Source of the DNA: Mollicutes bacterium
GTDB taxonomy: Bacteria; Bacillota_I; Bacilli_A; Izemoplasmatales; Izemoplasmataceae
NCBI GenBank assembly: GCA_003554025.1
Contig: PWFC01000013.1
Span: 1-64,000 of the forward strand
Direction of reading: 5' to 3'
Length of the DNA stretch: 64,000 bases
Shown here: one piece after another, positions 30,596-62,386 of the stretch
How positions within the stretch are numbered: position 1 is the stretch's first letter
Layout of the letters: every line of letters starts with the position of its first letter
Made by a program: the position numbers and the translations under genes
The notes under the pieces: generated by a model
The model's input: the letters and a program-made list of their open reading frames with translations, nothing else
What the model was told of the DNA's origin: nothing
Database searches by the model: none

Positions 30596-30619
30596 GATAA
30601 TACACACGAATACGTTTCA

Positions 30620-30727
30620 AAAACTGTCGAAGACCTTGGGTGCCGACCGGCTTAATTTCCCAAGTAGACAAAAGACATCGCACGCATAGCGTAGCCCTCT
30701 TTTGTCGTTTGACAGAAGAGGTTTTTT
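30620..30727 (+). promoter_or_regulatory. L10-L12 leader RNA with transcription attenuator
   Basis: A hairpin with outer stem TGTC (30625-30628) / GACA (30667-30670), a GA-containing internal loop, inner stem CTTGGG (30635-30640) / CCCAAG (30659-30664), and an apical part with GGTGC and GGCTTAAT is the L10(L12)4 binding fold. The terminator CCTCTTTTGTC / GACAgAAGAGG with six T is at 30696-30727. GACAAAAG (30667-30674) is exactly complementary to CTTTTGTC (30699-30706), the terminator's 5' arm, giving an antiterminator when L10 is not bound. This is the Bacillus-type mechanism. Confidence 0.85.
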
Positions 30728-30752
30728 ATTGACACATTAGGAGGTGGAACAA

Positions 30753-59004: not shown

Positions 59005-59027
59005 ACGCCCTATCAGGAGTGAACGCC

Positions 59028-61082
59028 ATGGATAAACTGGTCATCGTCGAATCGCCGAGCAAGTCCAAAACGATCAAGCAATACCTTGGAAAAGATTTTG
59101 AGGTGCTTTCGTCTAAAGGGCACATTCGGGACCTAGCCATATCAGGAACCGGCGGCCTCGGCCTCGACATCGAAAACAATTTCAAGCCTCGATACACCGT
59201 GCTTGAAGACAAACAAAAAACCATTGATTCCTTGAAAAAGGCCGCCGATAAAGCCAACGCGGTCTTTTTGGCAACCGACCCCGACAGAGAAGGCGAAGCC
59301 ATTAGCTGGCATTTGAAGGAAGTCTTAGAACTAGACAAAAAGAAAAAGCCCACTCATCGTGTCATTTTCAACGAAGTGACCAAGGATGCGATTCAAAACG
59401 CTTTTGATAACACGCGGGACATCGATTTGCATTTGGTGTCTTCCCAAGAAACCCGTAGAATTTTGGACCGCATCATCGGGTTCAAGTTGAGCAAGCTTTT
59501 GCAAAGCAAGATCAAGTCCAAATCCGCTGGGAGAGTTCAAAGCGCGGCTTTGAAAATGATTGTCGATCGAGAGAGAGAAATCGAAGCGTTTACTCCGGAA
59601 GAGTATTGGAAAATCACCGCGTACTTTGACGAATTCGAAGCCGAACTCAGCAAAATCAAGAAGCGTAAACCATCGTTAAAAAACGAAGCGTCCGCCGACA
59701 AGCTGCTTCAAAGTTTGAACGACACCTTCCGCATCAAATCCATCAAAGAAAAAGAGCGCCGTAGAGCGCCGAAAGCTCCTTTCACCACATCGTCGTTGCA
59801 ACAAGAAGCTTCCACGCGCTTGAACATGAGCGGGCAAAGGACGATGATGACGGCGCAAAAACTTTATGAAGGCATCGACTTACAAAACGAAACCGTCGGT
59901 CTCATCACTTATATGCGTACCGATTCGACGCGACTTTCCGATTCCTTCATCACGCCCGCCAAAAAGCACATCCGCAATCAATACGGAGAAGACTACGTAG
60001 GCCGTTATCGCAAAGGCCAGACCAAAGAGGGGGCGCAAGACGCTCACGAGGCCATCCGTCCGACGAGCGTTCGAAACCACCCCAATAAGGTCAAGCCTTA
60101 TCTGAAAGACGACGAATACCGTCTTTACAAAATGATTTACGCAAGAGCGATTGCCGCGCTCATGCAACCTGCAAAGCTCAAAAACACCACGATGATATTG
60201 GAAAACGCCGACGCCGAGTTCAAAGCCAAGGCCCAAGAAATGCTTTTCGATGGCTACTTGAAAGTGTATGGAGCCTATCAAAGCGTTGAAACGAGCAACT
60301 TACCAAACGAACAAGAAGGCGCTGAATTATCGGCCGAAAAAGTTGAGAAAAGCCAACATTTCACATCGCCTCCGGCGCGCTTTACCGAAGCGAAGCTGAT
60401 CAAAGAGATGGAAGAAAAGGGCATCGGTCGGCCCAGTACCTATTCGCAAACCGTTTCGACACTAAAAAAGCGTCGTTATGTGCGCACAAAGGAAAAGAAA
60501 TTCATTCCAACCGACCAAGGTCGATTGACCATTGAAAAACTCGAGCACTATTTTTCGCGAATCATCAGCGTCGATTACACTGCGCAAATGGAAGACGTGC
60601 TAGACGACATCGCCAACGAGGACATGGACCATCTTGCGATTGTCGCGGATTTCTACCACCGCTTTATGCCTCTGGTTGAAAAAGCGAACAAGGAAATGGA
60701 AAAAGCCGCGCCCAAGCTCACCGGAGAAAAATGTCCCAAATGCGGACGGGACATGGTGTATCGTACGAGTCGATACGGCACCTTTGAAGCGTGCAGCGGC
60801 TATCCCGATTGCAAATACATCAAGTCCGACAAGAAACAAGAACCCAAGAAAACCGGATTGACTTGTCCGAAGTGCAAAAAAGGCGAAATCGTCGAACGGC
60901 AAGCAAAGCGCGGCCGCAACAAAGGCAATACGTTTTACGCTTGCGACAACTTCCCGAAATGCAAAAACATTCTTCGTGGCAAGCCCACCGGCGAGGCTTG
61001 CGACAACTGCGACGATCTCATGGTAGAGCTTAAAGACGGCACCATCGCGTGCAACGACAAAAAGTGCGCGGAAAACAAATGA
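59028..61082 (+). CDS. topA: DNA topoisomerase I
   Basis: 684 residues from the ATG at 59028 after AGGAG; an in-frame GTG three codons earlier overlaps that site. The Toprim domain has LVIVESPSKSKTIKQYLG and ATDPDREGEAISWHL; the active tyrosine is in GLITYMRTDSTRLS. Three C-terminal zinc modules follow (CPKCGRDM, CPKCKKGE and ACDNCDDL with partner cysteines). It relaxes negative supercoils. In Bacillus topA follows dprA; dprA is absent here. Confidence 0.97.
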   Translation: MDKLVIVESPSKSKTIKQYLGKDFEVLSSKGHIRDLAISGTGGLGLDIENNFKPRYTVLEDKQKTIDSLKKAADKANAVFLATDPDREGEAISWHLKEVLELDKKKKPTHRVIFNEVTKDAIQNAFDNTRDIDLHLVSSQETRRILDRIIGFKLSKLLQSKIKSKSAGRVQSAALKMIVDREREIEAFTPEEYWKITAYFDEFEAELSKIKKRKPSLKNEASADKLLQSLNDTFRIKSIKEKERRRAPKAPFTTSSLQQEASTRLNMSGQRTMMTAQKLYEGIDLQNETVGLITYMRTDSTRLSDSFITPAKKHIRNQYGEDYVGRYRKGQTKEGAQDAHEAIRPTSVRNHPNKVKPYLKDDEYRLYKMIYARAIAALMQPAKLKNTTMILENADAEFKAKAQEMLFDGYLKVYGAYQSVETSNLPNEQEGAELSAEKVEKSQHFTSPPARFTEAKLIKEMEEKGIGRPSTYSQTVSTLKKRRYVRTKEKKFIPTDQGRLTIEKLEHYFSRIISVDYTAQMEDVLDDIANEDMDHLAIVADFYHRFMPLVEKANKEMEKAAPKLTGEKCPKCGRDMVYRTSRYGTFEACSGYPDCKYIKSDKKQEPKKTGLTCPKCKKGEIVERQAKRGRNKGNTFYACDNFPKCKNILRGKPTGEACDNCDDLMVELKDGTIACNDKKCAENK

Positions 61083-61211: not shown

Positions 61212-61240
61212 TTGACAAGCCATTGGTATTGTGGTATTAT
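61212..61240 (+). promoter_or_regulatory. Promoter of the structured RNA before ftsY
   Basis: TTGACA at 61212-61217, exactly 17 bp, TATTAT at 61235-61240. The predicted start, 61247, is the first base of a GNRA-capped hairpin. Confidence 0.87.
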
Positions 61241-61246
61241 TTACAT

Positions 61247-61359
61247 GCAATCGAAAGGTTGCACTTATCCCTTACATAGCATGGTGAATACTTGCTATTC
61301 ACACATCCCCTTCCTTAATCCGCCGCAAGGCGGATTTCCCTTTTATAAGGGGTTTTTTT
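61247..61359 (+). ncRNA. Unassigned structured RNA or leader between topA and ftsY
   Basis: About 113 bases in the 338-base gap between topA and ftsY. It has hairpin 1 GCAATC-GAAA-GGTTGC (61247-61262), hairpin 2 GTGAATA-CTTGC-TATTCAC (61284-61302), hairpin 3 AATCCGCC-GCAA-GGCGGATT (61317-61336), and a terminator CCCTT-TTAT-AAGGG with seven T (61338-61359). Hairpins 1 and 3 carry GNRA loops. CCCCTT at 61307-61312 could instead pair with AAGGGG of the terminator, a switch-like arrangement. It lacks the SRP RNA core, and I do not match it to any family I know. Confidence 0.72.
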
Positions 61360-61380: not shown

Positions 61381-61389
61381 TGTTATAAT
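61381..61389 (+). promoter_or_regulatory. Extended -10 promoter of ftsY
   Basis: TG-T-TATAAT at 61381-61389 with only a weak -35 (TTGGTT at 61362). It sits after the terminator of the structured RNA and 32 bases before the ftsY start. Confidence 0.6.
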
Positions 61390-61420: not shown

Positions 61421-62386
61421 GTGGGATTCATCAAAAACCTGTTTCAATCCAAAAAACAAAAACAACGTGCGCAAAAATATAGAATCGGTATGGAAAAGAC
61501 ACGCGAGAACGTTTTTAATCGTCTTGACGAACTGCTAAAGAGCGGCGCCCCCATCACCGAAGAGCTATTTGAGGACATAGAGGAACTGTTCATCACGGCG
61601 GATATGGGCGTCGACGTCGTTTTGTCCTTGGTCGAACATTTGAGGAACAGCGTTCGCGTACAAGACATCCAAGACGCCCATGAACTAAGGGAAATCATCG
61701 TTGAGGAAATGTTCAAACGCTATGTCAAAGACGAAATTGTCGACACGAACCTTAAGTTGAGCGACGGGCTCTCTGTGTTGTTGTTCGTTGGCGTAAACGG
61801 CGTCGGCAAAACGACAACCATCGGCAAGGTTGCGCACCTTTTGCAAAAGAAAGGCAAAAAAGTCATGATGGTTGCAGGCGACACCTTTCGTGCCGGCGGC
61901 ATCAATCAATTGAAAATATGGAGTGAACGAACTGGAAGCGAATTTTTTGAAAAACCCAAGGGCAGCGATCCTTCAAGCGTGATGTATGACGCCATCGCCT
62001 ATGCGAAACAGCACGACATCGACGTCTTGTTATGCGATACGGCCGGACGGCTCCAAAACAAAAAGCACCTGATGGAAGAACTTGGAAAAATACATCGCGT
62101 CATCGGCAGAGAGATTGAGGGCGCCCCTCAAGAAACGTTGCTTGTGTTGGACGCAACAACCGGTCAAAACGGTCTTTCCCAAGCGAAAATCTTCAACGAA
62201 GTCACACACTTGACAGGCGTAATTTTGGCCAAATTGGACGGAACCGCGAAGGGCGGAATCGCTCTTGCGATTCGCGAAACCATCGGCGTTCCCGTCAAAA
62301 TGGTGGGCTTGGGTGAAAAAGCGGAAGATTTGGAATATTTTGACATCGAAGAATACATCTACGGACTATTTTCGGATGTGATTTAG
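61421..62386 (+). CDS. ftsY: Signal recognition particle receptor FtsY
   Basis: 321 residues from a GTG after GAGG at 61411-61414. A short basic N-terminus replaces the long acidic A domain of E. coli, as in Bacillota. The NG domain shows GVNGVGKTTTIGKVAHLLQ, VAGDTFRAGGINQLKIWSE (with a G where AA is usual in DTFRAAA), LCDTAGRLQNK and AKLDGTAKGG. FtsY guides ribosome-SRP complexes to SecY. ylxM follows with no gap and ffh after it, so both SRP GTPases share one operon. Confidence 0.96.
   Translation: MGFIKNLFQSKKQKQRAQKYRIGMEKTRENVFNRLDELLKSGAPITEELFEDIEELFITADMGVDVVLSLVEHLRNSVRVQDIQDAHELREIIVEEMFKRYVKDEIVDTNLKLSDGLSVLLFVGVNGVGKTTTIGKVAHLLQKKGKKVMMVAGDTFRAGGINQLKIWSERTGSEFFEKPKGSDPSSVMYDAIAYAKQHDIDVLLCDTAGRLQNKKHLMEELGKIHRVIGREIEGAPQETLLVLDATTGQNGLSQAKIFNEVTHLTGVILAKLDGTAKGGIALAIRETIGVPVKMVGLGEKAEDLEYFDIEEYIYGLFSDVI

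Follow-up and report, generated by a model that had tools for sequence, protein, structure and literature searches.

In the window, as we call the whole 64,000-nucleotide stretch of Mollicutes bacterium DNA analysed here, the gene for DNA topoisomerase I (topA, 59019–61082, plus strand; Pfam PF01131, PF01751, PF01396) is followed on the same strand by ftsY (61421–62386) and then by ylxM and ffh, with the identity of all three confirmed by Pfam. Between topA and ftsY lie the signals and parts of a small RNA. Its promoter (61212–61240, +) consists of TTGACA, a 17-base spacer and TATTAT with an extended -10 TG, and gives 11 of 12 consensus matches. A single promoter-like match is unremarkable for this region (one found against 1.2 expected in shuffles); the same near-consensus promoter, already proposed by the sequence-only reading, recurs with a score of 10 or 11 of 12 in all 30 relatives whose ftsY loci were read. 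The predicted RNA starts at about 61246–61248 and ends at about 61359, and the length across the family is approximately 105–115 bases. Its own promoter and its own terminator are thus present and conserved as sequence signals, with their activity predicted from them.

The predicted 5′ end is formed by hairpin 1 (61247–61262, +; GCAATC-GAAA-GGTTGC), the GAAA-capped hairpin that had been expected at the start. It is followed by a single-stranded site, SS1 (61264–61280, +; CUUAUCCCUUACAUAGC), by hairpin 2 (61281–61306, +), in which AUGGUGAAUA pairs with UAUUCACACAU around one bulged A, by a second single-stranded site, SS2 (61307–61317, +; CCCCUUCCUUA), and by the terminator-like hairpin 3 (61317–61336, +; AAUCCGCC-GCAA-GGCGGAUU). 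Hairpins 2 and 3 correspond to the two further stems, one with a GCAA loop, that had been read earlier. The intrinsic terminator of the same reading is located at 61337–61359 (+) as a second terminator hairpin, UCCCUU..AAGGGG with a U run, which is typical of the ftsY-locus copies in the window's family; in the mobile copies linked to recombinases a U run stands directly 3′ of hairpin 3. The folding energy of the window RNA is -35.8 kcal/mol, compared with -20.6 ± 3.2 in shuffles (z = -4.7).

Relation of the RNA to ftsY

The element had at first been left as either a new small RNA or a cis-regulatory switch for ftsY-ylxM-ffh. A cis-acting attenuator or riboswitch would fit the position close upstream of ftsY, and the idea was based on two stretches, CCCCTT and TCCCTTA, that are indeed complementary to the AAGGGG arm of the terminator in the window sequence, where the minimum-energy fold pairs TCCCTTA with that arm. 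The alternative pairing is not conserved, however: AAGGGG occurs in just 6 of the 30 ftsY-locus relatives (AGGG in 25). Moreover, the terminator is followed by TATAAT (61384–61389, +), read in the sequence as the -10 element of a separate putative ftsY promoter (TGTGTTATAATA), and a similar box is found upstream of ftsY in many relatives. As there are also many copies, among them the second and mobile copies described below, without SRP genes downstream, we consider a switch for the SRP genes very improbable.

Conservation and covariation

The RNA is present in all 30 of the relatives' ftsY loci, and in an order-wide search a covariance model detected it in 47 of the 49 genomes of the window's family, many of which possess two to four copies. 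Among the 30 loci almost all positions from SS1 to hairpin 3 are invariant except in the hairpin loops, with SS1 nearly invariant and SS2 invariant in every relative, and hairpin 1 varies compensatorily. Class-wide, the cores of the two sites reduce to about UUAUCCCYUA and CCCYUU.

The alignments were fitted to the covariance model, a procedure that favours the model. For 74 copies including the second and mobile ones, 99.1% of cells are paired and both sides change in 21 of 26 pairs; 34 divergent copies, which bring in divergent families, reach 96.5% paired cells with two-sided change in 24 of the 26 pairs. When the letters are slid by one to three columns, only 30–50% of cells pair, and the level of covariation was reached by none of 500 shuffles. 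Hairpin 1 changes on both sides in all five modelled pairs with 100% of cells paired, every modelled pair of the upper helix of hairpin 2 has compensatory changes in the 34-copy alignment, and all eight pairs of hairpin 3 covary. The fourth hairpin (CCC-GGG), which is the second terminator hairpin, is the weakest helix, with 76.8% of cells paired in the 34-copy alignment. Conservation and covariation in relatives, proposed earlier as the way to judge a functional RNA, are therefore both strong.

Most of the letters that hardly vary belong to unpaired C-rich stretches, while the stems vary freely. A UCCCYU-type motif stands in both SS1 and SS2, on either side of hairpin 2, in nearly all copies. 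Exceptions exist, such as the divergent copy L091 (5006–5128, -), which is without the UCCC of SS1 and keeps CAUAGC, SS2 and the hairpins.

Distribution in the class and linkage to topA

Models built from the wider alignments detected the RNA in 62, and then in 80, of 395 genomes of the class. Eight families are represented (f1, f3, f7, f10, f12, f16, f18, and f22), that is, the window's family and at least seven others, and all 34 matches from a phylum-wide draw fall within the same class. In f3, f7, f12, and f16 the RNA is usually found directly 3′ of topA, with or without ftsY downstream, and several Acholeplasma-like genomes have it after topA and followed by genes other than ftsY; the copies of f18 are located elsewhere, not after topA. 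Overall, topA was found at 28 of the 30 loci from the window's family and at 26 of 40 distant ones, and in several families the distance from topA to the RNA is usually about 35–130 bases. This recurrent position directly after topA in distant families is evidence that does not depend on the model score. The earlier placing of the RNA beside the SRP operon holds true for the window, but the class-wide anchor is topA upstream rather than the SRP operon downstream. As a separate observation, two copies lie close together in genome G245 (L122, 3588–3716 and 4151–4235, -), one of which runs into masked bases.

Such close linkage might mean that the RNA is a processed 3′ end of the topA mRNA, or a regulator specific to topA. 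Against this stand the separate near-consensus promoter of the RNA, present in all 30 relatives, and the second and mobile copies, which have no topA beside them, and we judge either form of this explanation to be improbable.

Additional copies and mobile elements

Apart from the copies behind topA, a second set lies 52–108 bases downstream of large predicted lipoprotein genes, and a third set 36–45 bases downstream of paired large serine recombinases, with an XRE-type regulator ahead of them. The lipoproteins upstream of the second copy are 360–1577 amino acids long (for example L038, 3273–5981, -), and one that was tested had no Pfam match; a c-di-GMP-I riboswitch (L070, 3311–3386, -) is situated near the second copy of genome G027. 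Six viral contigs and one plasmid bear the RNA, mostly behind paired serine recombinases, the plasmid being that of Tenericutes bacterium MO-XQ (CP017949) with a copy of the third set; the INPHARED phages gave no match. Four of the RNA-bearing mobile elements adjoin tRNA genes. In the mobile module of L099 (7144–13300), L085, L097, and L101, two large serine recombinases stand side by side together with an XRE regulator, and a tyrosine integrase was also observed in L099; the tRNA genes that these modules adjoin differ (Leu-GAG, Leu-CAG, Cys), and L085 and L099 have their sequence in common as far as AACCTGG, where the tRNA junction lies. G139 (f12) likewise has a copy of the mobile type, and G138 (f10) one that is similar to it, which suggests that the RNA has been transferred between families. 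From these positions, the RNA is in most lineages a gene right after topA that has also been copied onto mobile elements.

Given that the phage and plasmid copies follow paired serine recombinases so closely, near tRNA genes, it could be argued that the element is a DNA feature of mobile elements, either an attachment site or an end sequence, which was subsequently fixed in the chromosome. The tRNA junction, however, lies about 200 bases further on, the pairing of the RNA is preserved by compensatory changes, and no element genes stand beside the chromosomal topA copies; of all explanations weighed here we find this one the least likely.

Comparison with known RNAs

No Rfam family matches the RNA in any lineage tested, and a check of the window gave no match at gathering level for it, the best local match having an E value of 0.29. 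Elsewhere in the window, at 30609–30736, a ribosomal protein L10 leader was detected with 44.4 bits against the Rfam cut-off of 44. Like bacterial SRP RNA, the new RNA is small, and in the window it adjoins SRP protein genes; the earlier view that it is not SRP RNA is borne out by the lack of an Rfam SRP match (RF00169) in the window and by separate SRP RNA genes in three relatives (G013, G027, and G176), whereas none was found in the incomplete assembly of G000. Streptococcal csRNAs occur in several copies and target ribosome-binding sites with pyrimidine-rich single strands that separate their hairpins. The new RNA shares with them the multiple copies and such strands between hairpins, and differs in lineage and gene context; this comparison was made through Rfam scans only, which gave no match.

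The best-known RNA that the new one resembles is RsaE (RoxS), which is likewise small, has an intrinsic terminator and contains two UCCCC-type sites. Its duplicated UCCCC seed is used on Shine-Dalgarno sequences (PMC9217828), and a duplicated motif of this type, which is a feature of RsaE, is present in the new RNA as SS1 and SS2. The RsaE model (RF01820), however, scored 13.7 bits in the window and 18.6 bits for the homologue L133, compared with a gathering cut-off of 79, and it found RsaE in none of the 395 class genomes while detecting the Bacillus subtilis control; the new RNA also differs in its three separate hairpins, its topA linkage and its mobile copies. LhrC (RF00616) is similar in being multicopy with several CU-rich UCCC sites, and was the best Rfam match of L133, from genome G176, at 28.7 bits (E 0.01) against a gathering cut-off of 110; it was not among the Rfam matches listed for the homologues L135 and L116 or for the window. 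LhrC uses its repeated UCCC sites on mRNA, and these lie in two loops and a single-stranded stretch (PMC4132741), whereas the conserved sites of the new RNA lie between hairpins. Closed-access or unpublished work aside, no description of the RNA was found in the literature; an Acholeplasma motif in PMC8632094 is located upstream of aroF and is not the new RNA.

Conservation, covariation, its own promoter and terminator, and the lack of an Rfam family strongly support the new small RNA of the sequence-only reading, and we are nearly certain of a genuine, conserved RNA family, transcribed independently and without an Rfam entry, with expression judged from the conserved signals. Because it has its own start and stop signals, recurs in many relatives, lacks an Rfam entry and is copied onto phages and a plasmid, it is probably a shared but hitherto undescribed regulatory RNA. 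The class thus holds an RNA without an Rfam family that is nevertheless conserved across several of its families, where no RsaE was found.

Possible mode of action

Sequence comparison places the RNA in a new class-wide family of small RNAs whose three hairpins covary, whose two C-rich single-stranded sites are fixed and which have a predicted promoter and terminator of their own. Our leading reading, which we hold tentatively and with slightly less than even confidence, is that it acts in trans, from its own transcript, as an antisense regulator. This reading leads because the UCCCYU-type motifs are like the seeds of RsaE and LhrC and because the G176 homologue has a match to LhrC, albeit below threshold; the concentration of near-invariant letters in single-stranded C-rich stretches, with freely varying stems, is what a seed surface would lead one to expect. 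The working surface would then be formed by the two C-rich sites on the flanks of hairpin 2, with SS1 and SS2 serving as short seeds that pair with G-rich stretches, mostly the ribosome-binding sites of several mRNAs, and so lower their translation. Hairpin 1 would protect the 5′ end, and hairpin 3 would end the RNA and protect its 3′ end. Phage and plasmid copies would present the same surface, and for that reason would, once inside the cell, supply the same network or compete for it.

Targets were sought by complementarity. Among 1152 start regions of G013 (1.6 Mb), SS1 and SS2 did no better than shuffled seeds, and in 234 orthologue pairs of G013 and G027, with only 0.4 Mb of G027 covered, complementarity was not conserved beyond shuffles. 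Near-perfect or long complements of the RNA revealed no recurring partner in 49 genomes, and the starts of the neighbouring recombinase and ftsY genes showed no clear preference for pairing with SS1 or SS2. Two rnfA genes were among the top SS2 pairs, and as a target rnfA was rejected, 95 of 200 shuffles being equally good across 30 genomes. One low value was obtained, for a regulator gene with SS2 (13 of 200 shuffles), from three starts of which two have a doubtful position. In nine genomes no Hfq was found. The complementarity tests could easily miss a small number of short-seed targets; as they gave no excess complementarity, the antisense mechanism is one that we infer, and a protein partner is a genuine alternative.

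A protein partner is indeed the main rival to the antisense reading. The C-rich sites flanking hairpin 2 may hold or titrate a conserved protein, with mobile elements carrying decoys, which we regard as possible though doubtful. Long near-invariant single strands beside freely changing stems would suit a protein-binding RNA, as would the absence of antisense enrichment and of a long complementary RNA partner recurring in the 49 genomes; SS1, with its nearly fixed stretch of 17 bases, exceeds the length required of a short seed, which counts against antisense pairing. Two viral copies moreover carry large insertions at particular points: the viral contigs L100 and L032 have forms with inserted or enlarged hairpins, the insertion lying between UUAC and AUAGC in L100 and in the loop of hairpin 2 in L032. 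On the other hand, what stays fixed beyond the window's family is no more than short UCCC-type cores, which are seed-like, and no candidate protein turned up, although no systematic search was made. We think it rather unlikely that the RNA belongs to a hitherto undescribed ribonucleoprotein of this Mollicutes-related class and binds protein through a fixed C-rich surface, in which case the phage and plasmid copies would be mimics serving to hijack or block the complex of the host. The near-fixed sequence of the RNA over most of the 17 genera in the window's family implies an important partner, and its copies on viral contigs and a plasmid provide a testable case of mobile elements with a regulatory RNA of host type.
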